From positions 1 through 46,695 of the IMG/VR virus record IMGVR_UViG_3300038701_000572: a stretch of 46,695 nucleotides of DNA, one strand, 5' to 3'. The notes under the pieces are model-generated. The model saw nothing but the letters and a program-made list of their open reading frames with translations, was not told where the DNA came from and did no database searches. A program made the translations under genes and the position numbers. How positions within the stretch are numbered: position 1 is the first letter of the stretch; every line of letters starts with the position of its first letter. This DNA comes from a virus. This document shows, piece by piece, positions 1 to 35,433 of this stretch.

Positions 1-128
1 AAGACAAGGTCATCGAGTAGGTTCGATAGATTGCATTACGAACCGTACCTGGCGCAGAGCCTGACGAGAAGATAGATTGAGCTTCAGTAACTAGGTCTGA
101 GCTTGCGCCTGCAATACCAGCGGATGCC
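1..128. repeat. Terminal overlap, left copy
   Basis: Bases 3-128 are identical to 46570-46695 (126 bases). Position 1 also matches and position 2 differs (a versus t), a change that is silent in the fibre gene. Because the gene reads through the join, this marks a circular contig, most simply an assembler overlap rather than a physical terminal repeat. Confidence 0.9.
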
Positions 129-775
129 AATGCGAGAGCTTCAATCTCTGACTTCAACTGGAGGTAAGTATTGTAGACGCTTCGAGCGCTAGCGTAATGC
201 ACATCACTATCTATATTGTTTAGGGTAATCGGATAGTTTTCCAGATTACCTAAACCGACATCTTCCTTAGTCGTAGCTTGTGCTCTCAACTGTGAGTAGG
301 TTCCACTGACACGAGCATAGTTCGATAAGTCAGGCGGTTCCACTTGAGCAATGTCGTTGGCTAAACTTTGGTACACACTATAGAGCAGTGACGACAGAAC
401 ATAAGTCTCGTCATTGTCTTGCAGTGTAGCCGCTGTAAAACGGTTCTCAACTTTGTCCAGCCCAACATCTTCTTTCGTAGTTGCCTGAGCACGTAGGTCG
501 GGATAAGTCCCATCCTTTAACGCCAACTGACTTAAATCCAGTCCGGTAATTGCATCAGCCTCTAGTGCTCGTACCGCAACCAACGCTTGACCTGACTCAT
601 TAAAGCGTGCATCGTTAGTTGTGTAATACTGCGTATAGGTTAGCTGCAAATTGACTGCGGCCAACTTAACTAAACGAATGTGGTCATCACCCTCATTTAG
701 TAAGTCGTCACGAGTCGGCCAGAGCAAATTAAAGTCTGACGGCAGGAAATCTGGTTTAGTGACTTCTAATGCCAT
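1..775 (-). CDS. Tail fibre, N-terminal part (gene continues at the window end)
   Basis: The frame starts with ATG at 775-773 and runs off position 1 without a stop. It continues in frame into the gene part ending at 46188, giving about 384 aa. The N-terminus (MALEV, then LPSDFN, WP, a DD-rich loop and DDHIRLVK) matches the start of three other fibre genes here and is probably the virion anchor. Two fibre repeats follow, each built on YPDLRAQATTKEDVGL or YSQLRAQATTKEDVGL, which is typical of phage fibre shafts. ATG overlaps the upstream stop as TAATG, so translation is probably coupled. Role in host binding is inferred from the repeats and the gene neighbours. Confidence 0.85.
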   Translation of the reverse strand, partial: MALEVTKPDFLPSDFNLLWPTRDDLLNEGDDHIRLVKLAAVNLQLTYTQYYTTNDARFNESGQALVAVRALEADAITGLDLSQLALKDGTYPDLRAQATTKEDVGLDKVENRFTAATLQDNDETYVLSSLLYSVYQSLANDIAQVEPPDLSNYARVSGTYSQLRAQATTKEDVGLGNLENYPITLNNIDSDVHYASARSVYNTYLQLKSEIEALALASAGIAGASSDLVTEAQSIFSSGSAPGTVRNAIYRTYSMTLS

Positions 776-1905
776 TAGCTTTTTCCTATTGGTCTGTTGG
801 TTACTAGCTTCCAAACTCCCTGCGAAGTTTTAAAGTTTTGACCACCGTGAGCAATTGTGACAGTTCCATCTAAGTCGCCTTGCAGTGTAGCCGTTACAGC
901 GTGCGTATAGTTCTGGTCAAAGAAGTCATCACTAGCCATTAAGGTTGCTACACCTTCAATGACTGTACGCCCTTCGACGATACGCCCTCTTGCTACGGTA
1001 CGATTCAGGAACTTAATGTCCACTGTAAAATCATAACCTGCGGCTGCGTTGACATCTATGTAGAAGTCTGGGCAACGGAGAAAGATAAAGTTATCAAGCT
1101 CGATTGCAGGGTTGTGATTAAAGTTCAAGTTGAACAGGTGGTAATTGGAAGTCTGCGTCCCTGTTATGGTTGCAGTATGGATAGCTCCAGGTAGGTAGGA
1201 TTTGAACAAGTATGTATGCTGGGACTGAGGGAATGGAAATGACTCAGCCTTCAATACTTCTCGCACATACCCTGGAGTGACCAATGTACGACTGTCAACT
1301 GTTTGTGTTGGGTTTGTATCAAACCACGTGGAATCTACATAACCATTAGCGAACAAGTTAGTCAACCCGATGTCATCCTTGGTTGTCGCTTGCGCTCGTA
1401 AGTTAGGGTAAGTTCCATCAATTTCAACCAGCTCATCAAACGGAATGTTCTCTGAACCAGCATTAGCTAGTAGCGCTCTTAACTGTCTGTTCCACTCTTT
1501 CAAAGTTCCAAGAGATAGGTAGTAACCTTCCTGACGGTTGGCCATATCAAAGCCAGTAGAGAGAGCATAGTTATTAAGTCTACCTAAACCCACATCACCC
1601 TGAGTTGTAGCTTGTGCTCGAAGTTCTGGATAAGACTGATCGATTTGCGCATATAAGTCAAAGTCAATATCGTCGGATAACTTGTCAGCAATTAAAGCTC
1701 GTTCTGCTACAAGTACCTGACCATCTTCATTAAACCTTGCCTCGTTCTCATCGTTCAAGTCTTCCAGTTCTTGCTCGGAGTTTTGAAGGGCAGTCTTTGC
1801 GTTACGTAGATGGTTATCACCTTCGTTAAGCGTGTCCTGCCCTTCAGGGTAATCTGGATTCAAGTCCGAAGGAAGCATGTTCGGATTACTTGGTTCCAGT
1901 GGCAT
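775..1905 (-). CDS. Tail fibre with LRAQATTK repeats
   Basis: 376 aa. The N-terminus (MPLEPS, LPSDLNPDYP, EGDNHLRNAK) belongs to the four-member anchor family of this genome. Two shaft repeats, YPELRAQATTQGDVGL and YPNLRAQATTKDDIGL, lie near residues 90 and 165. The C-terminal half is predicted beta-structure and is not recognisable, as expected for a variable receptor-binding part. Start and stop overlap both neighbours by one base as TAATG, so adaptor, this fibre and the next fibre are translationally coupled. It is one of several adhesins on the virion. Confidence 0.85.
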   Translation of the reverse strand: MPLEPSNPNMLPSDLNPDYPEGQDTLNEGDNHLRNAKTALQNSEQELEDLNDENEARFNEDGQVLVAERALIADKLSDDIDFDLYAQIDQSYPELRAQATTQGDVGLGRLNNYALSTGFDMANRQEGYYLSLGTLKEWNRQLRALLANAGSENIPFDELVEIDGTYPNLRAQATTKDDIGLTNLFANGYVDSTWFDTNPTQTVDSRTLVTPGYVREVLKAESFPFPQSQHTYLFKSYLPGAIHTATITGTQTSNYHLFNLNFNHNPAIELDNFIFLRCPDFYIDVNAAAGYDFTVDIKFLNRTVARGRIVEGRTVIEGVATLMASDDFFDQNYTHAVTATLQGDLDGTVTIAHGGQNFKTSQGVWKLVTNRPIGKS

Positions 1906-4212: not shown

Positions 4213-4239
4213 AAAAAAAGGGAGGGACGTACCCTCCCC
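4213..4239 (-). terminator. Terminator after the major capsid gene
   Basis: On the minus strand a perfect 7-bp GGGAGGG/CCCTCCC hairpin is followed by seven T residues (4213-4219). It lies 21 bp past the capsid stop and before the next gene, so it probably lowers expression of the genes downstream relative to capsid. Confidence 0.85.
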
Positions 4240-10152: not shown

Positions 10153-10622
10153 ATTAGTACATTATCTCCACCAGTCCAATCCCCGTTTAGGTCGTGTACC
10201 AGTTTAACTTCTTTAGGGTAGCGTGTAGTGTTTGAAAAGTTCTTACAGATTTCTACTCCCCGTACTGTAAACCCTGGGAATAGTTTCTTGAGAACTGGCA
10301 TGTACACGTGATTCAACTGAAACCAAGCCGTTGCTGTATGGCTCAGCTTACATTCAATCACCGTAACAATACCTTTTCTAACATCAATCAAGATGTGGTC
10401 TGGTGAACACAACTTAACTCCGCTATATATCTTGTACTTAATCCACGTATCACTGACAATTGGAAACCCTCTGTCGAGTAGCTCTTTCCCGACAGTGGTT
10501 TCGAAAGTGATGCCAGCACGCTTGTCGCCCCTAAGGTGGGCAGTGCCTGAATACGGTGGTGGCACATCGAACCAAGCATGCTGGACTTTACGTTTAACCT
10601 TGTACTTCTTTTTGCTCGCCAT
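10143..10622 (-). CDS. PD-(D/E)XK-like nuclease between terminase genes
   Basis: 159 aa, basic N-terminus. An early helix contains FETTVGKELLDRG (candidate Glu). The core PDHILIDVRKGIVTVIECKLS gives the D...ExK signature of the PD-(D/E)XK fold, and a glutamine (FQLNHVY) follows in the next helix. It overlaps small terminase by 29 bp and large terminase by 10 bp, so it is made with the packaging enzymes. A Holliday-junction or branch-resolving role before packaging is a reasonable guess; a packaging-site nuclease is an alternative. Confidence 0.7.
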   Translation of the reverse strand: MASKKKYKVKRKVQHAWFDVPPPYSGTAHLRGDKRAGITFETTVGKELLDRGFPIVSDTWIKYKIYSGVKLCSPDHILIDVRKGIVTVIECKLSHTATAWFQLNHVYMPVLKKLFPGFTVRGVEICKNFSNTTRYPKEVKLVHDLNGDWTGGDNVLIWT

Positions 10623-11136
10623 CTTCTACGACCGTATACTCTGCGTCTAAGATTTTGCGACGTCGAGCTTCACGTGCAGCGTTGACCATATCCGGCGTAA
10701 CTTCCAGACCACTAGATGAGTTTTCTGGGTTCACGTTTACCTGTACGGCAGCGGCTTTACCAATCATACCTGTAGCTTCAAGACCAAGCTTAGCCGCATT
10801 GATAGCATCGCTATCCTTAGACTTGTTGCTCTTGATAATCTGCTCCAGACGGTCAAGACCTGCTTCACCTACGGCGTGTGCTCTATCCTGCAAAGTACGA
10901 CGGCGAACACGAGCCAACTCATCCATGAATAGCTGACTGTTTTGAATTCGGCTTACATAAGGACGACTAATCCCTAGTTTGAATGCGATGTCTTTCTGTG
11001 TTGCACCTGGGTTAAGTACCATCAGGTCAAGTACCGCCCAAGCAGTTTTAGTCATTGAAGCAATCTGCTTCATCGTTGTCTGGGTTTCAGATTCACCCAT
11101 GTATAGTTCTGGTCTGTTTTCCATTTCGTCAGTCAT
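10594..11136 (-). CDS. terS: Terminase small subunit
   Basis: 180 aa. The centre holds a helix-turn-helix (GATQKDIAFKLGISRPYVSRI, residues about 44-64), followed by a long helical oligomerisation region and a charged C-terminus. It is expected to recognise the packaging site and to regulate the large subunit. ATG 11136 follows the AGGAGT ribosome site. Upstream at 11152-11179 is a palindromic AT element. Confidence 0.8.
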   Translation of the reverse strand: MTDEMENRPELYMGESETQTTMKQIASMTKTAWAVLDLMVLNPGATQKDIAFKLGISRPYVSRIQNSQLFMDELARVRRRTLQDRAHAVGEAGLDRLEQIIKSNKSKDSDAINAAKLGLEATGMIGKAAAVQVNVNPENSSSGLEVTPDMVNAAREARRRKILDAEYTVVEDGEQKEVQG

Positions 11137-11151
11137 AACAAACTCCTAATG

Positions 11152-11179
11152 ATATAATCCACACCTTTTGTGATTATAT
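11152..11179. promoter_or_regulatory. TATAATC palindrome before small terminase
   Basis: ATATAATCCACA and TGTGATTATAT form an 11-bp stem with one bulge. Each arm holds TATAATC, one per strand, and the plus-strand copy has an extended -10 (TGATATAAT). A leftward -10 for terS is possible, but no clear -35 is seen. Similar elements occur at 26937 and 35404. Confidence 0.45.
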
Positions 11180-11206
11180 AAAGATTGGCTAATTTTTAAC
11201 CGGCTC

Positions 11207-14940: not shown

Positions 14941-15150
14941 CCAAAATAAATTAACGATGCTAGTGCATCGAATTTATTTGCAGGTTCAATGACAGGAATT
15001 GTCGGGCAAAAGTTCTGGGTTCGCAGTCCGGCGGAGCCGTCCTTCTTCCCAACTTTAAATGCCCGCCAAATCCCTGTCAATATCCCTGCCATGGTCGGCG
15101 CGCTATCTTCTTCTTCCTACGCCCCAGGAGTGCCCGAGCGAAGCGAGGCC
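14941..15150 (-). ncRNA. Structured RNA element, copy A
   Basis: Read leftward, it contains five blocks shared with copy B at 20264-20462. (1) An identical 17-mer, GCCTCGCTTCGCTCGGG. (2) ACAGGGAT and GGCGGG...CATT. (3) GGACGGC-loop-GCCGGAC. (4) CCCG..CA and CCTGTCA, which pair with block 2. (5) A terminal AT-rich hairpin, AAATAAATTCGATGC with its complement, ending in TTTATTTTGG. Stems GACAGG/CCTGTC, CGGGCA/TGCCCG, AAAGTT/AACTTT and CGGC-TCC-GCCG nest into one long hairpin of about 90 nt. TTGACA-N17-TAAAGT (15080-15052) inside it could alternatively be a leftward promoter. Function unknown. Confidence 0.65.
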
Positions 15151-15349
15151 TTCATCCTTTGCAACTTTTCTCTTTATGTCAGTTATGATGGTCATCATAT
15201 GGGTAGGGACTACGTCCATCGTCAGTTGTTAACACTTACTTTGAAATCTGTAGAGACGCGGAAATGAGGCCAGAAAACCATGTGTGCCCCAGCCCCTTGG
15301 GGGGAAACCCACCCCCTAGAAACTCTAGCCATCCATACGTCTAGCCGTC

Positions 15350-15365
15350 TGCCTACTCGTAGGCA
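15350..15365. repeat. Short perfect hairpin beside a terminator
   Basis: TGCCTA and TAGGCA flank a CTCG loop, immediately 3' (leftward) of the T run of the terminator at 15367-15396. It may reinforce the transcript end or belong to the next RNA. Confidence 0.5.
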
Positions 15366-15366
15366 C

Positions 15367-15396
15367 AAAAAAAAGGGAAGCTATAAAGCCTCCCTT
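15367..15396 (-). terminator. Terminator after the 196-aa paralogue gene
   Basis: On the minus strand GGGAGGCT/AGCTTCCC (8 bp, one G-T pair, loop TTAT) is followed by eight T residues. It closes the accessory unit 41 bp past the gene's stop. Confidence 0.9.
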
Positions 15397-15436
15397 AGTC
15401 TTGCCGTCAAATTATTTAGAACAAAGGGCGTCGCCC

Positions 15437-16027
15437 TTAAAACAAACTATCAATGTCGAAGTCTTGCGCCGCCTTGGTCGCCTCCGAGCGTAGCTCGTTA
15501 ATGCGTGATTGCAAGCTAGCTCGAATCGCCTTGCGTTGCTCGTTATCCATCTTGGTTTGAAGGATAATGATAGCTTGTTCCTCGGTAAGCTCTTGCCCCT
15601 TCGAACTCTTAACGAGTTCGACAAAAGCTTTCGCAAAGAATATATCTACGTTAGCTTTCTTGGTTGCTCCACCGCTCGCACGTTCCTTAGTCATACGCCC
15701 GCCTTTGAGCATATCAACTAGCTCATTGAATGCCCCTACCTTCTCGGCAACCGCTTCCTTAGCGCTCATGCCCGACTCATTAAAAAGCTTGTCCGTTAGG
15801 CTTGCCGTTCTATCTTGCATAAATTGGCTCAAGCCATAAGCTAGCAAAGACTTCGGGTTCTCGCTATCTGCATCCATCACCTGACTAAACTCGTCGGTTA
15901 GCTCAATAACAAGTGTATCAAGTGGCTCCATCTCCGCTAGTTTGTAACCCTTCTCTAGTCCGGTCACGTCGAATAGTTTGATAGTTACTTGCTCATTGCT
16001 TAGTTCAAAAGTAGTACGAGTTTTCAT
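15437..16027 (-). CDS. Early protein, paralogue of the 17071-17613 product
   Basis: 196 aa, soluble, helical, family unknown. It shares with the other paralogue YGLSQ-x-x-QDR (residues about 85-94), then GG-x-x-KK-x-x-(V/I)D-x-FFA-x-AFV and KG-x-E-x-T-x-EQA-x-x-x-LQ, then RKA-x-R. It ends in DFDIDSLF, one of five [hydrophobic]-[D/E]-x-L-F termini here. AAGGA lies 9 bp before ATG 16027. A strong terminator follows. Separate terminators around each paralogue and different promoter use suggest independent expression. No enzyme motif is visible. Confidence 0.75.
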   Translation of the reverse strand: MKTRTTFELSNEQVTIKLFDVTGLEKGYKLAEMEPLDTLVIELTDEFSQVMDADSENPKSLLAYGLSQFMQDRTASLTDKLFNESGMSAKEAVAEKVGAFNELVDMLKGGRMTKERASGGATKKANVDIFFAKAFVELVKSSKGQELTEEQAIIILQTKMDNEQRKAIRASLQSRINELRSEATKAAQDFDIDSLF

Positions 16028-16152
16028 AATATGTTATCCTTATGTATGGAAAGTTGTAGCCTTATGGCTCTTATTGTATGGCTAAGAAGCGTCTCACTCC
16101 CTAACCACAACTTGATAATAGCTAACCTCGATGCGCTTAGCAAGCATTTATT

Positions 16153-16683
16153 TTAAAAATCTTTATCCGTGAACATGAACATAGCCAAGTGGTTCATAAA
16201 AGAGCTATCTTCATCAAGTAACATTTCCCATAGGTGGCGCATGTTATCTAAATAGTGTTGTCCCTTGTCACTCCCTAGCATACGTCCTGCTTGTCTAGTT
16301 GGTATCCAACAAACGCGCCCGTCATCGTGACGCCCCAAGTCACCTAAAAAGCATTGGCGGATTGTACCATCTTGTAGTTGAATATAAGCTTTCAAGCTTT
16401 CTTGATGCGCATTAATAGTAAACACTACCCCGTAAAGATTAAATTCAACCTTTCTTCTATTCTCCCCAAAACCATAGATAGTCATATCACTACCTCGGTA
16501 ATTCTTTTCTTGCTTCCATTCCGCTCGAAAGCTTTGCATCGTTACTTTAGGTTGCTTGCCTTGCTCAAGCTCATTGTTGAGCGTAAATACATCACTATCA
16601 ATCATAGCTTGCAATTGGCTAGTGTGCTCGTCTTTGTACTCGTTGTAGGTTTTGATAAGTGTTTCACGTTGTACGTATTTCAT
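16153..16683 (-). CDS. Hypothetical accessory protein
   Basis: 176 aa, unrecognised. Helical N-terminus (KTYNEYKDEHTSQLQAMIDS), a beta-rich centre (RKVEFNLYGVVFTINAH), and GRVCWIPTRQAG followed by a helical C-terminus with MNHLAMFMFTDKDF. It has its own sigma70-like promoter (16723-16751) and ribosome site AGAGGAAA. It sits between the two paralogue genes and is probably co-transcribed with the 15437 gene, as no terminator with a T run separates them. Confidence 0.7.
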   Translation of the reverse strand: MKYVQRETLIKTYNEYKDEHTSQLQAMIDSDVFTLNNELEQGKQPKVTMQSFRAEWKQEKNYRGSDMTIYGFGENRRKVEFNLYGVVFTINAHQESLKAYIQLQDGTIRQCFLGDLGRHDDGRVCWIPTRQAGRMLGSDKGQHYLDNMRHLWEMLLDEDSSFMNHLAMFMFTDKDF

Positions 16684-16722
16684 AGGGTTTTCCTCTTGTT
16701 TGTTCCCTTGGTTGATGTGCTC

Positions 16723-16751
16723 ATTATTAACTAGCCTCCCTACCTAGTCAA
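16723..16751 (-). promoter_or_regulatory. Leftward promoter for the 16153 gene
   Basis: TTGACT (16751-16746), a 17-bp spacer and AATAAT (16728-16723). The upstream flank GTTGTTGAC preceded by A tracts (to 16773) resembles an UP element and matches the flank of the promoter at 17767. Confidence 0.75.
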
Positions 16752-16763
16752 CAACTTTTTTAA
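16747..16763 (-). repeat. Shared promoter-flank block, copy 1
   Basis: The 17 bases are identical to 17791-17807 (gtcaacaacttttttaa on the plus strand). Both are followed by a second T tract within 3 bases. It covers the -35 and an A-tract upstream region. Confidence 0.8.
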
Positions 16764-16863
16764 ACTTTTTTTCACCTGGGTTAAATGCCTTCTTTATATC
16801 ATCCCACCGCCGCCAGATTATATCATCCATGATGCTCGCAGTTTATGCTTGAACTCCAGACAT

Positions 16864-16898
16864 AAAAAAACCCCCAAGCCAATTACTAGCGAGGGGGT
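16864..16898 (-). terminator. Terminator of the 17071 transcription unit
   Basis: On the minus strand CCCCCTCGC and GCTTGGGGG pair with one mismatch-type position around a 9-base loop, followed by seven T residues. It ends the unit about 175 bp after the gene's stop, leaving a structured 3' tail. Confidence 0.88.
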
Positions 16899-16970
16899 AT
16901 ACATCAAGAAGGATATATCAGGGCAGTGAAAGATGCCGCTGAATGTCAGTATTCAAAAACCCGATATGAG

Positions 16971-17063
16971 CAAGCAGCTCGCAGTGTACACTTTCTCAAC
17001 AAAATATACACTGCGAGTGGCTTGCCCAGAGCCACAAACAAATTAGGGAATGCTCTGGGCAAG
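16971..17063 (-). ncRNA. Two overlapping hairpins in a 3' untranslated region
   Basis: Hairpin 1 is CTTGCCCAGAGC/GCTCTGGGCAAG (17063-17052 with 17032-17021, perfect 12 bp). Hairpin 2 is an 18-bp stem with two mismatches (17024-17007 with 16988-16971), including an 11-bp perfect core CTCGCAGTGTA/TACACTGCGAG. The four bases 17021-17024 belong to both stems, so their bases compete. The element starts 8 bp after the gene stop. It could stabilise the mRNA, be released as a small RNA, or act at DNA level. Confidence 0.6.
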
Positions 17064-17070
17064 TTTCTGC

Positions 17071-17613
17071 TTACGAGAACAGGTCTTCTAGGTTGAAGTC
17101 TTCAACTGCCGAAGCTGCTGCTGCTTTAGCCTTTTCAATGTGCTCTTTGATTTCGGCTGTTTGACGTACAGCTTTACGAGTATCGGAATCCATATCCTGG
17201 AGAACAAGAACTGCTTGCTCCACAGTGATCTCTTTACCCTTGGTAGCTGCAAGTGCAACAAACGCCTGAGCGAAGAACGTATCAATTGAAGGTTTCTTAG
17301 CACCGCCACCTGTAGATACACGAGCTTCTTTCCATAGGCCTGACTTCAAGGTTTCGAACGTCTTAGCCATTTGAGCAAGCTTCTCATCAGTCTGGCAAGG
17401 TGCCGCACGGTCTTGAAGAATCTGGCTTAGACCGTAAACCGCTAGGCTCATCACGCCTTCACCGTTCTGGAATTGTTCCGGCAAGTCTGCCAGGCCGAAA
17501 ACTACTTCTTCGACTACGTGAGCCGACGCTTCACCTTCAGTGTAGCCTAGACGTTGAACGATTACTGCTGTACAGTCTGCATTAGGAACAAAGTTGAAAT
17601 TTTTACGTGCCAT
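17071..17613 (-). CDS. First leftward early protein (paralogue family)
   Basis: 180 aa, soluble, unrecognised. It shares the YGLSQILQDR, GGGAKKPSIDTFFAQAFV, EQAVLVLQDMD and RKAVR segments with the 15437-16027 product, and ends DFNLEDLFS. The promoter at 17767-17795 and AAGGATAGCT before ATG 17613 are both strong, so it is probably abundant and early. It has its own terminator. A takeover protein or an adaptor that binds a shared partner through the DLF tail is possible, but nothing enzymatic is visible. Confidence 0.75.
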   Translation of the reverse strand: MARKNFNFVPNADCTAVIVQRLGYTEGEASAHVVEEVVFGLADLPEQFQNGEGVMSLAVYGLSQILQDRAAPCQTDEKLAQMAKTFETLKSGLWKEARVSTGGGAKKPSIDTFFAQAFVALAATKGKEITVEQAVLVLQDMDSDTRKAVRQTAEIKEHIEKAKAAAASAVEDFNLEDLFS

Positions 17614-17766
17614 GATAGCTATCCTTGGGCTATGCCCGTTATAAGTTTGAAATTAAATGAAAGTTAAGTTAGCGGTGAGGGCTACTTCTGCTGAGAACGG
17701 CTACTCAAAGAATCCTCTAAGAGATTTACGCCAGAAGCAAATGCTTGTCCCTTACCGCTTACATAC

Positions 17767-17795
17767 ATAATACGAAATCCATTCCCAGTGGTCAA
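17767..17795 (-). promoter_or_regulatory. Leftward promoter for the 17071 gene
   Basis: TTGACC (17795-17790), a 17-bp spacer and TATTAT (17772-17767), with A tracts upstream to 17817 like an UP element. It shares a 17-base flank with the promoter at 16723-16751. Confidence 0.78.
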
Positions 17796-17807
17796 CAACT
17801 TTTTTAA
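17791..17807 (-). repeat. Shared promoter-flank block, copy 2
   Basis: Identical to 16747-16763. It lies over the -35 edge and the upstream A tract of the promoter at 17767-17795. Confidence 0.8.
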
Positions 17808-18025
17808 GATTTTTTCGTGGCAAACTTTGTGCCAGAATGTACGGCATACTATGTGGAGTTTTTCACATCCCAATTTAAAATAATGGTTGACAGCGCAAAG
17901 TTTACATGTTATTCGCGCGTTCCTCTATATATACCCGTCCCCGTCCCCGTCTACAGCCACCGAAATTGGCTAAACTATCAGCCATCCGTTAATTGGCTGT
18001 TTACAAGTTGTATCACTAGCATACA

Positions 18026-18054
18026 ATTATATAAAGTAAGACGAAGACTCACAC
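18026..18054 (-). promoter_or_regulatory. Leftward member of a symmetric promoter pair
   Basis: Reading leftward: GTGTGAGTCTTCGTCT (18054-18039), seven bases, then TATAAT (18031-18026) and TGTATG. The rightward partner has the same 16-mer at the same distance from TATAAT. The 16-mer takes the place of the -35 box, so an activator or alternative recognition is implied. Confidence 0.65.
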
Positions 18055-18143
18055 CATACGCCACATATGCCCTCTCAGGGTTATATAATATATATATATT
18101 AACCTGTACACGGGTATGCACCACAACGTGTGAGTCTTCGTCT
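18039..18143. repeat. 16-bp perfect inverted repeat around an AT-rich core
   Basis: Arms at 18039-18054 and 18128-18143 are exact reverse complements, 73 bp apart. The interval contains CCCT-CTC-AGGG and GGTTATATAATATATATATATTAACC, itself nearly palindromic. Candidate operator pair or origin. Confidence 0.8.
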
Positions 18144-18156
18144 CATTTGATATAAT
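18128..18156 (+). promoter_or_regulatory. Rightward member of a symmetric promoter pair
   Basis: GTGTGAGTCTTCGTCT (18128-18143), seven bases, then TATAAT (18151-18156) with an extended -10 TGA. It starts the replication operon about 80 bp before the first gene. Confidence 0.7.
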
Positions 18157-18239
18157 GTTATGTCAGACAAAAACAAAGCTTGTAAGCTGAAAAGTTCTGT
18201 TTTATTGTGATTCCATTGATTACAAAGGAGAAGTTAGCT

Positions 18240-18785
18240 ATGGCAGTACCTGCAGCTACCCGTCGAAGAATAAATAACCTGAGAAAGAAAGCAAACGAAA
18301 TTAAAATGGTATTGGGGAACCTTAAACAAGGCCTGGATACTGTAGAGGTTACTGTGGACTTGAATACACCCCACGCAACATGTCAGGGCTTTCGCCGTTA
18401 TTTAGGTAATGTACGAGAGCTAGCAATTGAAGGTGTGTTGGAGCCTTCAGACCTAAGTTTGTATGAAGACCTGATTTGTTACAACTTCAAGCCAATTCCT
18501 AATACTATGAACATCCTTCTTACTAGGAAGTTCCCGGTTAACCCAGAGAATGACGCATCGCATGACGCTGTACTTAATATGCGACCTGGTGTTAGTGCAA
18601 CGGCAAGAAGTAATCTGCAGGAACATATGGAAGAACTCTACACTATGTGTGGTGAAGTTAAACCTGTAGTTTCTATGGTGGAAGATGATGACTTGGCTGC
18701 TATTATGGCGGAAATGAATACCCCGACGCAAAGCGAACTGGAAGAAGAGTTTAATAGTAAGTCAGGATATGACGATTTGTTTTGA
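18240..18785 (+). CDS. First rightward early protein
   Basis: 181 aa from ATG 18240, preceded by AAAGGAG; an upstream in-frame ATG at 18207 lacks a ribosome site. The basic N-terminal helix (RRRINNLRKKANEIK) could contact nucleic acid. The middle is mixed and the C-terminus is acidic (MVEDDDLAAIMAEMN) and ends SGYDDLF, matching the DxLF termini of four other proteins. No family recognised. The TGA stop begins a TGATATAATCT motif. Confidence 0.75.
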   Translation: MAVPAATRRRINNLRKKANEIKMVLGNLKQGLDTVEVTVDLNTPHATCQGFRRYLGNVRELAIEGVLEPSDLSLYEDLICYNFKPIPNTMNILLTRKFPVNPENDASHDAVLNMRPGVSATARSNLQEHMEELYTMCGEVKPVVSMVEDDDLAAIMAEMNTPTQSELEEEFNSKSGYDDLF

Positions 18786-18793
18786 TATAATCT
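18783..18793 (+). promoter_or_regulatory. TGATATAATCT motif at a stop codon
   Basis: An extended -10-like TGATATAAT starts on the stop codon and lies 21 bp before the next ATG, so a promoter here would give an almost leaderless message. Half-palindromic with TATTATATA just before the next ATG. Confidence 0.35.
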
Positions 18794-18813
18794 GAGTAAG
18801 GAGGTATTATATA

Positions 18814-19065
18814 ATGTTCGGTCAACAACCTAAGATGCACAAGGTAGTATGTGTCAGAGTAGATTACGATGACATTGACTTAGTAAGTGAGTATGTTATA
18901 CTTAATATTAGACATGGAGCTAAGGATAGACTTCAGGATAAGAACCTGATTCGTGAGAAGGTTGAAGAAGTCTGTCGCTGCGAAGGTCTGGAGTACAGGG
19001 TGACTCCTATCAATCTGGATTCATTAGTTACTAATGACAACCTGACTTATTTCATTAATCTATAG
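18814..19065 (+). CDS. Small hypothetical early protein
   Basis: 83 aa, unrecognised, with strong AAGGAGG before ATG 18814. Predicted alpha/beta (VVCVRVDYDDIDLVSEYVI, then a helix with REKVEEVCRCEG). Three cysteines without a metal-site pattern. Its stop is followed at once by AGGAGG and the hairpin leader of the next gene. Confidence 0.65.
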   Translation: MFGQQPKMHKVVCVRVDYDDIDLVSEYVILNIRHGAKDRLQDKNLIREKVEEVCRCEGLEYRVTPINLDSLVTNDNLTYFINL

Positions 19066-19074
19066 GAGGACGTT

Positions 19075-19110
19075 ACGAGCTTGCTCGTTGCTCGTTGCCT
19101 CCAAGGAGGC
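19075..19110 (+). promoter_or_regulatory. Hairpin leader masking a ribosome site
   Basis: ACGAG-CTTG-CTCGT (19075-19088) is followed by GCCTC-CAAG-GAGGC (19097-19110). The right arm of the second hairpin contains the AAGGAGG site four bases before ATG 19114. The CCTCC arm could also pair with the earlier AGGAGG at 19064. A translational switch is plausible. Confidence 0.6.
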
Positions 19111-19113
19111 TGA

Positions 19114-19632
19114 ATGGCAAACTACAATATTAAGGTTGCTTTTGATTTGGGACTCAATGCAGCGACAAGCGTTCGTGGTGTTGAACCTAACCTTGGTCAA
19201 GGTAATCAAAAGAGGGAAGGCATCGCCACGAAGGACAGTTTCTTTGCTTTCGCTGGTGATACGTTGGACTTAACCAATGCCTATGAGAAGTTCCAAACTT
19301 ATCGCAAGTTGGTACGATTGTTTGACTTTACTCAGAGTGGTGACTATGTATTCCTGGTTTTTACTTTGGTAAACTTCAATGGTACGGGAAATGATAAGAA
19401 CTGGTTTCTTGCATTCCATAAGAGCTGGTTGTTAGATAATGGTGAGTTTAGTCGTAACTTGCTTTTTGAGTTGGAGGTTATGTTCACGGAAGATCCCTAC
19501 AACTTTACGTTTGACGACGTAATCTGGTACACATTTGACAGTGAGGTAGATATTACTACATTGTCAGCAGAATGGTTGGACTTTCCTGTTATTGAGGAAC
19601 CACGCCGACCAACTATTTTTAATTCATTCTAG
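19114..19632 (+). CDS. Hypothetical early protein under hairpin control
   Basis: 172 aa, unrecognised, soluble, rich in aromatic residues and acidic (QTYRKLVRLFDFTQSGDYVF, NWFLAFHKSW, DDVIWYTFDSE). The start is fixed by AAGGAGG inside a hairpin. The C-terminus ends RRPTIFNSF. The composition suggests a compact beta-rich protein. Nothing links it to a known family. Confidence 0.7.
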   Translation: MANYNIKVAFDLGLNAATSVRGVEPNLGQGNQKREGIATKDSFFAFAGDTLDLTNAYEKFQTYRKLVRLFDFTQSGDYVFLVFTLVNFNGTGNDKNWFLAFHKSWLLDNGEFSRNLLFELEVMFTEDPYNFTFDDVIWYTFDSEVDITTLSAEWLDFPVIEEPRRPTIFNSF

Positions 19633-19643
19633 AGGATAGAGAA

Positions 19644-20186
19644 ATGACTGAAAAGAAAGACGTAAAAGAGCTGATTGCAAAGAAGAATGCCGAGAAGGTT
19701 GCCGAATCGCAGGGTGCGAAAGTTGAAACGGCGAAAGCCGAGAAGGTTGATACAGCACAGGCAGCTGCGATTGCTGGCATGAAACCAGGTGATATTATTC
19801 CTCACACTGAGCAGCTTGCTGCGAAGTCAATGCCGCCAATGGACTTGTTGATTCAGGTTGGTGCTACGCCAAGTAACTTTGTAGCTAAGGTAAATGAGCT
19901 GAAGGCGCTGGCTCATGTTCGTAACTTGTTTGGTAGCGCACATCATACAGTGATGTATTACCAAGTTGAGCTGCAAAGCTACATGAAGCGTTACTACTGG
20001 GTAGCTGTCCATAACAGTCACCTGAAACTTGAAGGTACTAAAGAAGCTATCGCTGAGCAGCTTGCTGCTAAGAGTCCAGGTACTGTGGTACATGTCATGA
20101 AGACTGATGAGCACGCTGCCAAGGACGCTGAATACATGGACTTAGGTTCGATGGAACTTCCGGCGACTATGCTGGCTAAGTCGTAA
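19644..20186 (+). CDS. Hypothetical early protein
   Basis: 180 aa. The N-terminal 50 residues are lysine, alanine and glutamate rich and likely flexible (KKNAEKVAESQGAKVETAKA). A folded domain follows with AHHTVMYYQVELQSYMKRYYW and a repeated EQLAAKS near residues 57 and 132. No catalytic motif. It precedes the structured RNA element B. Confidence 0.65.
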   Translation: MTEKKDVKELIAKKNAEKVAESQGAKVETAKAEKVDTAQAAAIAGMKPGDIIPHTEQLAAKSMPPMDLLIQVGATPSNFVAKVNELKALAHVRNLFGSAHHTVMYYQVELQSYMKRYYWVAVHNSHLKLEGTKEAIAEQLAAKSPGTVVHVMKTDEHAAKDAEYMDLGSMELPATMLAKS

Positions 20187-20206
20187 CTGAAGAAAAGAAA
20201 AAAGGT

Positions 20207-20264
20207 GCAATCTAGGAGTGCTATCGTGGCTGATAAAAAGGAAACGATAGCAATCTAGGAGTGC
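20207..20264 (+). repeat. 15-bp direct repeats around a hairpin
   Basis: GCAATCTAGGAGTGC occurs at 20207-20221 and 20250-20264. Between and overlapping them, GCTATCGT (20220-20227) pairs with ACGATAGC (20244-20251). Each repeat carries AGGAG. The first could drive a ten-codon GTG frame (V/M-ADKKETIAI, 20226-20258), a possible leader peptide. Confidence 0.55.
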
Positions 20265-20462
20265 CTCGCTTCGCTCGGGGACACTCTGGGCACTTTCAAG
20301 TTAGACGACAATAGAGAGGGTGTTTACAGGGATAAAAATGGCGGGGCATTGTTGACGGGTGGACGGCTTGCCGGACAACAGTCTTTACAATCCCGTCATT
20401 TTGACCTGTCAACACTCTCTCAAATAAAGTTCGTGACCTTAGGAACGAAGCTTTATTTTTGG
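20264..20462 (+). ncRNA. Structured RNA element, copy B
   Basis: Homologous to copy A. It begins with the shared 17-mer GCCTCGCTTCGCTCGGG. GAGAGGGTGTTTACAGG (20313-20330) then pairs with CCTGTCAACACTCTCTC, an inner AAAATGGCGGG pairs with CCCGTCATTTT, and a CGG-CTTG-CCG tip lies within GGACGGCTTGCCGGAC. The 3' hairpin AAATAAAGTTCGT/ACGAAGCTTTATTT ends directly at the GGAGG of the 20470 gene. Stem sequences differ from copy A while pairing is kept, which supports RNA structure. It lies in the sense orientation of its operon. Function unknown. Confidence 0.68.
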
Positions 20463-20993: not shown

Positions 20994-21149
20994 ATGCGAC
21001 ATCATAGACGTAATTTTAAATTCGCTGGGAGTTTGGAAGAAGTAGTTGCCATCTCTCGACGCATGACAGGCAAGACTCTGAAGGTAGAGGCTCGCAAAGA
21101 ACAGCACAAGAAACACATGAAAGATTATAGGGAGAAAAACAAATGCTAA
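20994..21149 (+). CDS. Very small basic protein
   Basis: 51 aa, from ATG 20994 with AAGGGAG before it. The product is strongly basic (MRHHRRNFKF, RRMTGKTLKVEARKEQHKKH) and could bind nucleic acid. It overlaps the next gene by 7 bp. The tight spacing, ribosome site and continuous operon make it a real gene despite its length. Confidence 0.6.
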   Translation: MRHHRRNFKFAGSLEEVVAISRRMTGKTLKVEARKEQHKKHMKDYREKNKC

Positions 21150-21391
21150 CTTTTGTAACTTTTGGCCAGGTACACGCACATAGTATCAATGGCAAGACTT
21201 TGGATAAGGACTGTGTTGCAGTCTTTGGTCGTATGTCGGAAGCTGATGTAAGAGCCTTGCTTCACGATAGCTATAACAATGAATACGCTCAGACGTTTAA
21301 CCACACCAACTGGGATGTTAACTTACTGAAGTATTTCCCACGTGGTTATGTGTACGTAGACTTTGAGCCAGAAGACGGTTTGCTAGGTTAA
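21143..21391 (+). CDS. Small hypothetical protein
   Basis: 82 aa, unrecognised, with GGAG before ATG 21143. Predicted alpha/beta; aromatic C-terminal half (NHTNWDVNLLKYFPRGYVYVDF). It closes the first rightward cluster, after which a new promoter begins. Confidence 0.6.
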   Translation: MLTFVTFGQVHAHSINGKTLDKDCVAVFGRMSEADVRALLHDSYNNEYAQTFNHTNWDVNLLKYFPRGYVYVDFEPEDGLLG

Positions 21392-22253: not shown

Positions 22254-22280
22254 AAAGCCTCCTGGTTAGGGGGCTTTGTG
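22254..22280 (+). terminator. Weak terminator or attenuator
   Basis: AAAGCCTCC/GGGGGCTTT pairs over nine bases with one T-G pair and a six-base loop, but only TTTGTGATT follows. Partial termination or mRNA processing is likely. Confidence 0.5.
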
Positions 22281-22569: not shown

Positions 22570-24068
22570 AATTTAGTTTAGAGCAGGTTGATATTATTGA
22601 AGCTGCGAAAACGTTGATTGCAGATTCAGTGTATAATGCGTTGCGTGTGAACTCAGTAGCCGGTAGTGGTAAGACTACTATCCTGTTGCGTTGTGCAATC
22701 GTACAGCCAGTTGACAAGGTTGTTATGCTGGCGTTTAATAAGCGGATTGCAGAAGAAATTCAAGCGAAGATCGCTAAGGCGAAGCGACAGTATTCTTTAG
22801 AGTATTTCGTGGATATGGTTGATTTGCCTGAGATTCAAGCAGCAACATTCCATAGTTTCTTTTTGAACTATTTGCGTATGCGTCTTGGTCGTCAGGTTAA
22901 AGTTGATAAGCGTAAGAACCACGACATTTTTGCTAAGCTGTTTCCCGAAGACCCAGCGATGGTTTATCCGGTAGTACAGTTAGTTAGTGCGTTGAAGAAC
23001 TGTGGTTACATTATGCTGACAGCAATGGAGCTGACAGACGTAGCGGATTTAGCGGAAGAGAAAAACTTAGAGTTGCCAAAGGGTTACACGTACCAGACTA
23101 TGGCAAAAATGGCTCACAAAGTTTTTATGACTTCAGTTAAAGACCATACGAAAGTAGACTTTGACGACATGCTTTTCTTGCCTGTGCTGTTCCATCGTAA
23201 GCATGGCTGGAAGTGTGACCGTATGCCTGTTTGTATTGTGGACGAAGGCCAGGATATGAATAGCTTGCAGCGTTACTTGGTATGGATGATTGCAGATAAC
23301 GCCATCATTGCAGGCGATAAGAACCAGGCAATCTATGGTTTCCGTGGTGCTGACTATAATTCGATGGAAATGTTTAACGACCACTTCACCTGTAAAGACT
23401 TGGGTATGACTTACAGTTGGCGTTGTCCTCAGAAGATTGCTCCAATGGTTCAGCCTATTGTACCTCAGTTTAAGGTTCCTGAAACTGCGATGGAAGGTAC
23501 GATAGTTGAAGGTACTTATGGGGATTACTTAGCGCATGAGTACAAGGATAGAGAAAACCTCTGGGTTTGTCGTATGAACTATCCGCTGTTTAAGATTGCG
23601 TTGACGTACCTGAAGCATGGCATCCCGTTCGATATGCACCCTAAGTTTCCGACTCAGTTGCTGAATTTGGTCAAGAACTTCAAGTGTGACTTGATTCCAG
23701 AGTTCATTGCTAAGCTGGACGATTGGTTCGAGAAGGAACAGAAGCGTTTGGCAGAGAAGCCTAACCTGCTGAACCAGGCGGAAGATAAGTTTAAAGCTTT
23801 GAAGATTCTTGCGAAAGATAGTACGAATGTTCAGAACCTTTTGAGCACGCTGAATCAGTTAATGTTTAGTGACGAAGGCGGTGTGCGTCTGCTTACAGTG
23901 CATGGTGCTAAAGGTCTGGAAGCGAAGCGTGTTATTATCTTAGGTATTAACTTGATGCCTAGTGAACGTGCGGAATCGCCTGAACAAATCCAGCAAGAAC
24001 AAAACTTAATTTATGTAGCCAAGACACGTGCATTGGAAGAGCTAGTGTTATTGCATTTGGAGAAGTAA
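22566..24068 (+). CDS. UvrD/PcrA-like superfamily 1 DNA helicase
   Basis: 500 aa. The SF1 motifs appear in order: Walker A VAGSGKTT (31-38), motif Ia AFNKRIAEE, motif II VDEGQD (225-230), motif III GDKNQAIYGFRGA (250-262), motif IV SWRCPQKI, motif V TVHGAKGLEAKRV (about 445), motif VI IYVAKTRALEEL (about 485). It is shorter than host UvrD because the 1B and 2B insertions are reduced. It unwinds DNA 3' to 5' in replication or recombination. A Cas4-like nuclease is encoded 0.5 kb downstream. Confidence 0.92.
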   Translation: MKFSLEQVDIIEAAKTLIADSVYNALRVNSVAGSGKTTILLRCAIVQPVDKVVMLAFNKRIAEEIQAKIAKAKRQYSLEYFVDMVDLPEIQAATFHSFFLNYLRMRLGRQVKVDKRKNHDIFAKLFPEDPAMVYPVVQLVSALKNCGYIMLTAMELTDVADLAEEKNLELPKGYTYQTMAKMAHKVFMTSVKDHTKVDFDDMLFLPVLFHRKHGWKCDRMPVCIVDEGQDMNSLQRYLVWMIADNAIIAGDKNQAIYGFRGADYNSMEMFNDHFTCKDLGMTYSWRCPQKIAPMVQPIVPQFKVPETAMEGTIVEGTYGDYLAHEYKDRENLWVCRMNYPLFKIALTYLKHGIPFDMHPKFPTQLLNLVKNFKCDLIPEFIAKLDDWFEKEQKRLAEKPNLLNQAEDKFKALKILAKDSTNVQNLLSTLNQLMFSDEGGVRLLTVHGAKGLEAKRVIILGINLMPSERAESPEQIQQEQNLIYVAKTRALEELVLLHLEK

Positions 24069-26936: not shown

Positions 26937-26968
26937 TTATATAATCTCAAGCGCACGAGATTATATAA
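26937..26968. promoter_or_regulatory. Perfect TATAATCTC palindrome
   Basis: TTATATAATCTC (26937-26948), eight-base loop AAGCGCAC, and GAGATTATATAA (26957-26968), a perfect 12-bp inverted repeat 36 bp before the ATPase ATG. It contains TATAAT on both strands. Regulatory role inferred from position and from similar elements at 11152 and 35404. Confidence 0.55.
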
Positions 26969-27004
26969 AAATCTTGATTCAATTAGTTAGAAGGAAAACA
27001 CGAT

Positions 27005-28927: not shown

Positions 28928-28954
28928 TAGCTTAGTTAAGCAGGTATAAAGTGA

Positions 28955-28985
28955 GGGCTAGGCAGAAATGCTTAGCCCTTTTTTT
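28955..28985 (+). terminator. Strong terminator after the SSB-like gene
   Basis: GGGCTAGGC/GCTTAGCCC (nine pairs, one G-T) around AGAAAT, then seven T residues. Confidence 0.93.
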
Positions 28986-29010
28986 GGTTTAAATAAAAGG
29001 AAAACCTAGT

Positions 29011-30688: not shown

Positions 30689-31202
30689 ACATAAGTTCCC
30701 AAATACGAGTACAGTGGATGCGCTTTGCCCAGTCGATCGTTTGTTCGTTGACCTTGATGGCTGTATTTTTAGCAACCTCAGCCGCAGCGTTATGGTACCT
30801 GATGACCCTTATGACACTGCTGGTTGGTTGGCTTTTGAAAAAGAGTGTCTCAATGATGAAGTCATCCAGATGGTGGCAGACATTGTTAGACATTATAAGC
30901 ACCGTTATAGTGTTCAAGTAATCTTCCTGACCGGACGGACGGAAGCTATCTTTGAACAGACAGTGACGATGTTGAACCATCATATTCTTAGTGAGTGGGA
31001 TGGTTTGGTTATGCGACCAGTTAATGAGAAGCGTCGCGGTCATGAGTGGAAACTCGAACAGTTACATAAGCTAGGTTGTTGTGCTGGCGATATGATTATG
31101 GATGATTGCTTAGACACCATTAAGGCTGTCATGTGCAATTTCCCTACAGCTAGTTTCATGTACACGAACTTTGGTATGTGTAAGAGCAGACCAAATAACT
31201 AA
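30678..31202 (+). CDS. HAD-superfamily phosphatase
   Basis: 174 aa from ATG 30678, with GGGCGG upstream; an in-frame ATG at 30525 lies in the preceding gene. HAD motif I VDLDGCIF, motif II IFLTGRTEA, a conserved Lys in NEKRRGHEWK, and motif IV GDMIMDDCLDTI. The arrangement resembles phage nucleotidase or polynucleotide 3'-phosphatase domains. It lies directly before the DNA polymerase, so nucleotide or DNA-end metabolism is likely. Confidence 0.8.
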   Translation: MSYEHKFPNTSTVDALCPVDRLFVDLDGCIFSNLSRSVMVPDDPYDTAGWLAFEKECLNDEVIQMVADIVRHYKHRYSVQVIFLTGRTEAIFEQTVTMLNHHILSEWDGLVMRPVNEKRRGHEWKLEQLHKLGCCAGDMIMDDCLDTIKAVMCNFPTASFMYTNFGMCKSRPNN

Positions 31203-31236
31203 GGTAAGGGGGTTCGCCCCCTTCTCTGGAGGATAT

Positions 31237-33885
31237 ATGTCAATAAATAAAGTTTGTTACGTGCCAGACAGTTGGAACGGATTACTGATTGTTGGAGACT
31301 TTCCAAGTAAGAAGAAAGCCGACAGCGGTTTCGTCAAACCTTTGTGGGGTAGTGAAGGTACTGCTATTGCAGAGGAACTGAGAAAGGTTGGTATCGTATT
31401 TAAAGAGTGTGCAACAATGTACGCTATAGACTTTTACCCGAAAGCAGGAGTTATCAACAATGAATATTCTAACAAATCTGCGGTTAAGCGTGGCGAAGGT
31501 TGCGAGTATGGAGACAGGTTTATCAGTAACCGATATGCAGCTGAGGTTGACGCTACTCGAAAACGGATTGATGAACTTAAACCACAGTTCATACTTACCC
31601 TTGGGGAAGCAGGCCTTTTCTCTGTACTTATTGAACGAGGGATCGATGACTTCAGAGGCAGCATGGAATGGTATGAGTCAGATGTGGCAAGAATTCCTGT
31701 TATGCCGACACATTCCATCAGCCGAGTACGTAAACAACCAGAGCTTGGCTTACTTGTGCATCGCGACCTGGCTCGACTATGCGAACACTACGGAACAGGC
31801 GTTTGGCCAGACAAAGACTGGAACATTAACATTGCAGATACTTATGATTCAGCGGTTGCAGGGCTTCAACAATTACTCGATGGACTGGACTCTAAGCCTG
31901 GAGGCTATCGCATGGGAGTCGACATTGAGACTAGGAAGAAGCGTTTCATGTCAGTTATCGGATTCGCAACAAGCCCTACAGACGCCTTGGTTATCCCCTT
32001 TCAAGACCCTGATTGGAAGCCTATCTTCAGTACAGTTGATGAAGAGTATCGGGTTATCTCTCTCGTGCGTCGCGTACTGGAACATCCAAACATGCGCTTG
32101 GCTGGGCAAAACTACCACTACGACGCACAGGTGCTTGCGGCTCGATACGGGGTTAGGTCGAACATTTGGTGCGACACTATGCTCGCTCATCATACTGCGT
32201 TCAACACAGGCATCAAGCAAGCACTGCATGTAATCTCTAGTATCTACTGTGAGCATTACCAGTACTGGAAAGACGAGAGTCACGCAGATGCAGGTGATGA
32301 CAAGTGGGAACCAACCTGGAGCAACTGGGAAAACTATTTGTTCTATAACGGCAAGGACTGTTGCAATACACTGGAGTGTGCGGAAGTCTTGATGGATGAA
32401 GTTATTCCTGCGTATAAGCTAGAGAAACCTTGGGCACACCAGATGGATTTATGGCGTCCACTGTTGAAACTGATTCTTCGTGGTAACAAGTTTAACGTAC
32501 AGAAAAGAGATCAGTTTAGAAAGGATTTGCGCAAGCGTATGGATAAGCTAGCGTTGTTCATGGAGAAGATTGTTCCGACTGACATTTATCCACGGAATCC
32601 AAAGACTCCTTTCTATAAGAGTCCGACTCAGTTGAAGGAATTGTTTTACACAGTACTGGGACAACCTGTTCAGACCAAGAAGAATGCTCAGGGTCAGTGG
32701 CGTCCAAGTACAGACGATACTTGTCTGAAGAAAGTGATGCAACGTGAAGAAGCTTTGATTCCTTTGTGTCAGGCAATCCTGACTTATCGCCAACTTGAAA
32801 CTTGTATGGATACATTCTTGAGTACAAGCCCTGACGAAGATGGTTACATGCACTCAGGTTACAGACAGTCGGGAACCAACACGTATCGTTTCAGTTCTAA
32901 GAAAGATGCGTTTGATCAGGGTATGAACTTACAGAACATTAACAAGGGAACGGACAATGCCAAATGCTACATGCACCGTGTCTACGGATTTGACTGCGAG
33001 ATTCCTAACATTAAAGATTTGTTTGAGCCGGATGTCGGTTTCGAGTACTGTGACGTTGACCTTGAGCAGGCAGACGCACAGATTGTTGCTTGGGAGTCAG
33101 ACTGTCAGCGACTCAAAGAACTGTTCCACGACGATACTAAAGACTTCCACTCTGAAAATGCTTTCGCATTCTATGAAGGGATTAAAGGGGAGCCAGTTGG
33201 AAAATACGAAACTGTCCTGGATAGTGGAGCCGTCATGGTTAAGGCTGAGGATGAGTGGCGTAAACCACTTAAGGCTGGCGGGCATGCGACTAACTACAGA
33301 ACAACTGCTCCTACACTCGCTAACGCACTCAGCTGTACAGTTGCTGACGCACAAGACTTTATAGATACGTGGTTCAAGCTTAACCCTGAAATTAAAGAGT
33401 GGCACCACAGAACAGAAGCGGAGGTTACAGGTCGTGGATTTGTTGAAAATGGATTTGGATTTAGAGGTCGCTTCCTTGGACGAGTCACACATAACACTCT
33501 TGCTGAAGCACAAGCATGGGTTCCTCAGTCTAGTGTTGCACACGTCATTAATACCGGATGGTGCAACATTGAACGAACTATTAATAAGAGAACACAAGGG
33601 CAGTACGATGTTGCGTGGTGGGAAGGCGAGGACATTGTTAGAATTAGTTTCCAAGTACACGATTCCTTGGTTATGCAATTCAGACAGAAGCACCGCAAAG
33701 CTGTGCTACCAAAGATTCGACAGTGTATGCTCGTACCAATCCCTTACAAGGACAGCAATGGGAATGACGATCCACTGACGATAGGACTTGGTAGTCCCGA
33801 AATAAGCAAGTATTCTTACGGAACAATTAAACCGATGTTGTGGGAGCAACCTGATGACGGAAAGCAAGAAGCGCTCAGTGACTGA
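31237..33885 (+). CDS. Family A DNA polymerase with UDG-like N-terminus
   Basis: 882 aa from ATG 31237 (TGGAGGATAT before it). Residues 15-180 resemble a family 4 uracil-DNA glycosylase: LLIVGDFPS, PLWGSEG, TLGEAG, PTHSISRV. The 3'-5' exonuclease has DIE at 229-231, AGQNYHYDAQ at 289-298 and YNGKD at 370-374. Polymerase motif A is CDVDLEQADAQIVAW (D606, D608), motif B K679 to Y688, and motif C QVHDSLV (806-812), with Ser in place of the usual Glu after His-Asp. It is the replicative polymerase. Similar UDG fusions occur in some phages such as SPO1. Confidence 0.92.
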   Translation: MSINKVCYVPDSWNGLLIVGDFPSKKKADSGFVKPLWGSEGTAIAEELRKVGIVFKECATMYAIDFYPKAGVINNEYSNKSAVKRGEGCEYGDRFISNRYAAEVDATRKRIDELKPQFILTLGEAGLFSVLIERGIDDFRGSMEWYESDVARIPVMPTHSISRVRKQPELGLLVHRDLARLCEHYGTGVWPDKDWNINIADTYDSAVAGLQQLLDGLDSKPGGYRMGVDIETRKKRFMSVIGFATSPTDALVIPFQDPDWKPIFSTVDEEYRVISLVRRVLEHPNMRLAGQNYHYDAQVLAARYGVRSNIWCDTMLAHHTAFNTGIKQALHVISSIYCEHYQYWKDESHADAGDDKWEPTWSNWENYLFYNGKDCCNTLECAEVLMDEVIPAYKLEKPWAHQMDLWRPLLKLILRGNKFNVQKRDQFRKDLRKRMDKLALFMEKIVPTDIYPRNPKTPFYKSPTQLKELFYTVLGQPVQTKKNAQGQWRPSTDDTCLKKVMQREEALIPLCQAILTYRQLETCMDTFLSTSPDEDGYMHSGYRQSGTNTYRFSSKKDAFDQGMNLQNINKGTDNAKCYMHRVYGFDCEIPNIKDLFEPDVGFEYCDVDLEQADAQIVAWESDCQRLKELFHDDTKDFHSENAFAFYEGIKGEPVGKYETVLDSGAVMVKAEDEWRKPLKAGGHATNYRTTAPTLANALSCTVADAQDFIDTWFKLNPEIKEWHHRTEAEVTGRGFVENGFGFRGRFLGRVTHNTLAEAQAWVPQSSVAHVINTGWCNIERTINKRTQGQYDVAWWEGEDIVRISFQVHDSLVMQFRQKHRKAVLPKIRQCMLVPIPYKDSNGNDDPLTIGLGSPEISKYSYGTIKPMLWEQPDDGKQEALSD

Positions 33886-35375: not shown

Positions 35376-35404
35376 GGGGATGTCAGTTGGCATCCCCTTT
35401 TTTT
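35376..35404 (+). terminator. Terminator of the rightward operon
   Basis: Perfect 7-bp GGGGATG/CATCCCC hairpin, eight-base loop, seven T residues. Convergent leftward transcripts end in the same 60-bp gap. Confidence 0.92.
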
Positions 35405-35433
35405 ATATAATCTTTGAGCGTGTAGATTATATC
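35404..35433. promoter_or_regulatory. TATAATCT palindrome at the convergent end
   Basis: ATATAATCT/AGATTATAT, 9 bp, around TTGAGCGTGT. The leftward copy begins at the TGA stop of the 1735-aa gene (TGATATAATCT). Same motif as at 18783 and 26937. Confidence 0.5.

Follow-up and report, generated by a model that had tools for sequence, protein, structure and literature searches.

Two homologous copies of a conserved structured RNA in the divergent operons of a phage genome, with a possible role in modifying RNA polymerase

The window analyzed here is the whole of IMG/VR virus record IMGVR_UViG_3300038701_000572 (46,695 nucleotides), a terminally redundant phage genome (direct repeat of 126 bp) with about 46.6 kb of unique sequence, and our subject is two structured RNA elements, A and B, that lie in its divergent operons. 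The structural and packaging genes are on the minus strand, running leftward from 14891 and wrapping round to 35432, and the replication genes, including those for a UvrD-like helicase, a PD-(D/E)XK exonuclease, a Sak4-like protein, a methyltransferase, a DNA polymerase, and a primase, are on the plus strand up to 35369. Element A (15089-14943, minus strand) is positioned ahead of the late genes; element B (20314-20459, plus strand) is within the replication operon, about 2 kb in and downstream of four early genes, and is not an operon leader. An earlier note on this DNA had proposed two homologous structured RNAs here, one per divergent operon and each in sense orientation. Both copies were located at the coordinates and on the strands that it gave, and the proposal is strongly supported by model matches, by covariation, and by the sense orientation of all 10 elements found in this genome and its relatives. 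In the explanation that we favor, A and B both belong to a single family of cis-acting structured RNA, and each forms part of its operon's transcript.

Each element consists of a hairpin (P1) of about 110 nt, interrupted and with a conserved tip, and an AT-rich hairpin (P2) of about 36 nt directly after it, about 145 nt in total. P1 of element A (14980..15089, minus strand; E -55.5, z -7.1) and P1 of element B (20314..20421, plus strand; E -56.1, z -8.3) were each equaled by 0 of 200 shuffles, and genome-wide, P1 of B was the second-best local fold of the plus strand and A the third-best of the minus strand. The approximately 220 nt around A fold with -86.8 kcal/mol (z -5.0) and those around B with -86.0 kcal/mol (z -7.1), values that none of 200 dinucleotide shuffles equaled in either case. 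The tip of A, GGACGGCTCCGCCGGAC (15026..15042, minus strand), carries a tandem GA/GA mismatch within its stem, and that of B, GGACGGCTTGCCGGAC (20361..20376, plus strand), has a CUUG loop and tandem GA/GA and is followed by ACA, 3 bp, and then a 3' TTT bulge. P2 of A, found by folding directly 3' of P1 (14944..14979, minus strand), has an ACTA tetraloop, a 2-nt TT bulge on the 3' side, and a U-rich 3' arm, and is weakly terminator-like (-8.6). P2 of B (20422..20458, plus strand) is likewise weakly terminator-like (-8.4), and its end adjoins the ribosome-binding site (GGAGG) of the gene at 20470. A role for P2 as no more than a terminator was rejected as a general rule, U-rich tails being found in the window's copies only.

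The pieces listed in the earlier note are real and present in both copies: the 17-mer GCCTCGCTTCGCTCGGG, ACAGGGAT, GGACGGC-loop-GCCGGAC, CCTGTCA, and a terminal AT-rich hairpin. GGACGGC-loop-GCCGGAC, at 15042-15026 (minus strand) and 20361-20376 (plus strand), has no other exact match in the window. The 17-mer is shared upstream of A (15133..15149, minus strand) and of B (20263..20279, plus strand), but it is no part of the conserved fold, and the related phage VS-ABTNL-3 lacks it even when 2 mismatches are allowed. Directly 5' of element B we also observed a 41-nt imperfect tandem duplication (GCAATCTAGGAGTGC x2; 20181-20264).

Relatives were collected with TerL, the helicase, phrog_28928, and the capsid protein as baits. 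The nearest annotated one is Vibrio phage vB_VspS_VS-ABTNL-3 (MF497422; W01 below), with 74% identity in the capsid protein and 73% in TerL; the others used here are G001 (IMGVR_UViG_3300039008_000027), G002 (IMGVR_UViG_3300036546_000107, to which contig L223 is almost the same), and L226 (IMGVR_UViG_3300011261_000088), obtained from the phrog_28928 scan. A covariance model built from B alone with its own fold (R1) was searched against both strands of 585 kb, and up to an E value of 1 it matched B itself, A (2.1e-7), the antisense of B, G001-A (1109-1238, plus strand; 3.6e-5), and G001-B (40082-39963, minus strand; 0.017), and nothing else. The covariance search that the earlier note had suggested was positive. 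A second model (R3), built from A, G001-A, and G001-B without B and searched against 988 kb, matched B at 1.8e-21 and a third VS-ABTNL-3 element, W01-C (23247-23372, plus strand), at 4e-4. W01-A (about 62-220, plus strand) reached 21 bits, significant in a small search only (1.3e-4). The remaining copies were recognized by other features: W01-B (38930-38800, minus strand) by place, fold, and features, and G002-A (near 21066-21216, plus strand) and G002-B (near 14011-13871, minus strand) by shape and place, the model scores of these three in sense orientation being near zero. Shape and place also identify the single copy in L226 (10193-10343), just before a helix-turn-helix/TerS-like gene, as in G002.

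The window, G001, G002, and VS-ABTNL-3 all have one sense copy per divergent operon, and in the three relatives one copy lies toward the 5' end of the late operon, and the other is preceded by a few early genes in the replication operon. The extra VS-ABTNL-3 copy, W01-C, has its own P2 and a CTCTTAA 3' bulge and lies between the last late gene (ending at 23187) and a convergent gene at 23378. By tblastn, the genes adjoining the elements are not conserved between phages. No other clear element emerged from a search of 80 capsid relatives, plain sequence alignment of distant copies fails, and G003 (TerL 43%) has hairpins in the region with no common motif. Two sequence patterns were set aside. 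The exact pattern ACAGGGAT...GGACGGC...GCCGGAC gave three matches without the fold in IMG/VR, which we took as chance because L004 is unrelated and the stretch in L003 and L005 is one and the same; CGGCTYGCCGN{0,1}ACRACAG gave 75 matches, with the fold in the two of G001 only.

For covariation, the structure was taken from B and counted on three sequences excluding B, and the models' antisense matches, which arise because P1 is palindromic, were left out. Standard pairs filled 91.5% of the pairing cells against 71% in shuffles, and double-sided changes occurred in 30 of 54 pairs against 12; neither value was reached in any of 500 shuffles, and sliding the partners by 1 to 3 columns lowered pairing to 31 to 44%. 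With B included as a fourth row, 182 of 196 cells pair and 37 of 54 pairs have double changes. Fitting the alignment to the structure biases it toward that structure, whereas the E values of the models are independent of that fit. Relatives confirm the compensatory change that had been read from two copies, and the covariation test proposed with it came out positive. The tip region also keeps nearly one shape among the clearest copies. A helix leads to a 3-nt bulge on the 3' side (TTT, CTT, or the like), and 3 to 5 bp separate this bulge from a small internal loop; beyond the loop come 2 bp, then a mismatch, which is tandem GA/GA in A, B, and G001-A, and then 3 bp capped by a short loop, often CTTG. 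In P2, the two-base TT bulge of the 3' side recurs in window A, all three VS-ABTNL-3 copies, and G001-B, and P2 is identical over about 36 nt between G001-B and W01-B, downstream of which the helicases are 37 to 39% identical to that of the window. We are highly confident that the RNA fold is conserved; it is kept in at least four related phages while its sequence drifts.

The copies within a genome are more alike (54% and 53% identity) than orthologous copies are (43% and 45%), and A and B of VS-ABTNL-3 have a common CTTGT tip loop, unlike the loops of the window. This suggests, from sequence comparison, that both copies in each phage may have one reader, either a phage factor or the polymerase of that phage's host.

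The transcripts that would carry the elements contain conserved terminators. In the window, a strong intrinsic terminator (15373..15396, minus strand; E -15.0, T-tail 4.56) lies between the early leftward genes on one side and element A with the late operon on the other. Each operon has a single strong internal terminator: that of the late operon (4219..4239, minus strand; E -15.2) closely follows the capsid gene, with the next gene 22 nt farther on, and that of the replication operon (28953..28986, plus strand; E -20.1) precedes the methyltransferase gene by about 30 nt. The replication operon ends at a terminator at 35376..35404 (plus strand; E -15.4). Thus, sense terminators do lie downstream of the elements, as the earlier note had claimed, but its "several" comes down to one strong internal terminator per operon (at 4219 and 28980) plus that at 35397, the one at 22275 (plus strand) being weak. 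A strong sense terminator after the capsid gene is present in 4 of 4 phages (window 4219, W01 10003, G001 12867, and G002 28443), and so is the one on the methyltransferase side (window 28980, W01 29980, G001 31860, and G002 5091). No more than 22 to 33 nt separate these terminators from the following start codon in the window and W01, so that a new promoter would have little space; in G001 and G002 the terminator on the methyltransferase side is approximately 550 to 640 nt upstream of the gene, and a promoter could fit there. A further strong terminator of G001 follows its element A at a distance of about 70 nt.

This arrangement invites comparison with the put RNAs of phage HK022, two sites of about 70 nt, each of two stem-loops, that bind the zinc-binding domain of the β' subunit (PMC9378689). 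Both systems have cis-acting RNAs, one per divergent operon, with two adjacent stem-loops and with copies alike within a genome (PMC9378689). However, the present elements are about 145 nt long with a first hairpin of about 110 nt, VS-ABTNL-3 has its extra copy at an operon 3' end, and the present phages are lytic-type and belong to another lineage. The put RNAs themselves suppress termination with no help from a phage protein. Membership in the put family was rejected: a model (R2) from putL and putR, which were located by mutual similarity and position rather than by annotation, matched these two in HK022 (1e-18 and 4e-16) and neither element, its best other match (E value 2.4) lying elsewhere, and R1 had no match in HK022. 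The lambda nutL and nutR sites (boxA plus boxB, used by N) are also one per divergent operon, with a hairpin that varies between phages and matches within a genome, and VS-ABTNL-3 A has CGCTCTTAA, a nut-like feature, after its tip hairpin. The present fold is much larger than nut, however, and boxA (YGCTCTTWA), with a full match in VS-ABTNL-3 A, 8/9 in G001-B, and background elsewhere, stands out in two of nine scored copies plus W01-C and was rejected as a general feature.

Resemblance to the bacterial EAR and LoaP-dependent RNA antiterminators lies in nascent RNA within long operons and a proposed aid to readthrough. Against it, the window has no Rfam match at the gathering threshold (among eight elements, the sole match was a weak subthreshold one to an unrelated small RNA, in G002-B), and no NusG/RfaH/LoaP-type protein was found in the four phages, although the controls worked. 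We found no description of this RNA family in full-text literature searches, with most subscription papers outside their coverage.

We tentatively favor, as a real if still doubtful possibility, the view that the elements are nascent cis-acting RNAs that modify RNA polymerase, probably together with a phage factor. The P1 tip (CUUG-type loop, tandem GA or a variant, 3-bp helix, and 3' U-rich bulge) and P2 would emerge on the nascent RNA and be bound by the elongating host polymerase, probably aided by a phage-encoded or host factor, and the bound polymerase might then resist terminators farther down. Such readthrough would serve the late genes past 4219 and the methyltransferase, polymerase, and primase genes past 28980. 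The mode of action would be put-like or nut-like, and the family neither of the two by sequence. Slightly more tentatively, the elements may represent a second family of phage RNA antiterminators, double the size of put and without sequence relation to it, whose tip loops vary together within each genome. Since they do so, the loops in such a family would probably be read by a phage-specific protein or be adapted to the host polymerase.

Several observations weigh against polymerase modification. Antitermination at W01-C, after the last late gene, would push transcription into the convergent operon, and this 3'-end copy misfits a simple antiterminator; the put model has no match at the elements; and lambda-type boxA fits some copies only. 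Because of this operon-end copy and the lack of a put or nut match, we hold antitermination as tentative. Besides, terminators after capsid genes also occur as leaky level-setters in phages without antitermination, promoter-like motifs exist internally, and the tip sequence varies between phages, that of G002 being different. The put-like hypothesis of the earlier note is thus compatible with the layout and with the conserved downstream terminators, whereas the put model and W01-C speak against it.

As for the proteins that could take part, no RNA polymerase, sigma factor, N, or Q was recognized among the proteins scanned with Pfam and PHROGs. N proteins are small and variable. A PF00940 search gave no match to a T7-type polymerase, and the control genomes were equally silent. 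A phrog_28928 pair of early proteins (17613-17071 and 16027-15437, minus strand), related to each other, was folded as a candidate partner (predicted local distance difference test score, 84) and had no match among solved structures. These proteins are also paired in several relatives, mostly with acidic D-L-F/L-type tails.

The main rival to polymerase modification is mRNA processing or stability, in which RNase III or another nuclease would cut P1 and leave P2 as a protective 5' (or 3') hairpin. Early processing sites of phage T7 are the comparison case for such cutting. They too are irregular long hairpins inside phage transcripts, and the long double-stranded RNA in these transcripts, the adjacency of P2 to the ribosome-binding site in B, and the copy at a VS-ABTNL-3 operon 3' end, which would suit end protection, are consistent with it. 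We nevertheless consider it rather unlikely, as uninterrupted helices are short (5 to 17 bp, mostly ≤12 bp), the conserved tip, tandem GA, and 3' bulge exceed what generic duplex cutting needs, and there is usually a single copy per operon, beside P2. Less probable again is a protein-binding regulatory RNA that does not act on termination, such as a site at which a phage protein controls translation of the next gene or operon timing. P2 adjoins a start codon in several copies and the copies within a genome evolve in concert, as such a site would allow, but the next gene differs between phages, and the position of element A with respect to the lysis genes in G001 and G002 is not that of the window.

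That the strand folds as single-stranded DNA, forming a priming or packaging signal with one copy on each strand, is very unlikely. The presence of a copy on either strand would suit such a signal. Folding is stronger in sense than in antisense in 10 of 10 copies, and DNA parameters favor the same direction, so this preference alone is no proof of RNA; besides, the operons are on opposite strands, and strand and sense are confounded. The preference is usually larger under RNA parameters, however, position tracks operon layout, and the third VS-ABTNL-3 copy breaks the one-per-strand rule. Least probable is a stable free RNA cut from the operon transcripts as a decoy, a small regulatory RNA, or a virion RNA: size and stability are compatible with this and two copies would increase the dose, but the copies examined have no separate flanking promoter or terminator and remain in operons.

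Other features were observed in these genomes. A near-perfect inverted repeat in the divergent early region (18020-18162) has an outward TATAAT-like box in each arm, as if two copies of one early promoter stood back to back, and similar palindromes of about 150 nt with AT-rich centers occur in L196 (5640-5790), L200 (28-177), L226 (3972-4121), L231 (2433), L262 (1931), and L304 (1896). An intergenic inverted repeat, ATATAATC...GATTATAT, which may be a promoter, operator, or hairpin, is found at 11152-11185, 16794-16825, 18783-18814, 26939-26972, and 35402-35436 of the window, and VS-ABTNL-3 has GTATAATT-type repeats, one of them shortly 5' of its element A. A very strong double hairpin (16954-17088, minus strand; z -8.9) follows the first early leftward gene and precedes a terminator at 16870, and small GC hairpins with a TTCG loop lie in intergenic positions upstream of several genes in the relatives L006, L194, and L198. 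The DNA polymerase of the window (31171-33885) is a single 904-amino-acid frame, and the tblastn matches in L006, G001, and G002 are split in two near residue 595. VS-ABTNL-3 PVS_06 (L006 3170-3754), annotated as "putative RNA polymerase," has only helix-turn-helix motifs in Pfam, and its counterpart in the window (10594-11136) looks like a terminase small subunit.

RNAs that modify their own polymerase are known from few phages, and if the present elements act in this way, a separate, well-conserved family of defined shape would show that the strategy arose more than once. The family occurs in a deposited phage, Vibrio phage VS-ABTNL-3. Should its function turn out to be processing or the binding of a protein, this is still an RNA family that Rfam lacks and for which a few genomes already give strong covariation.

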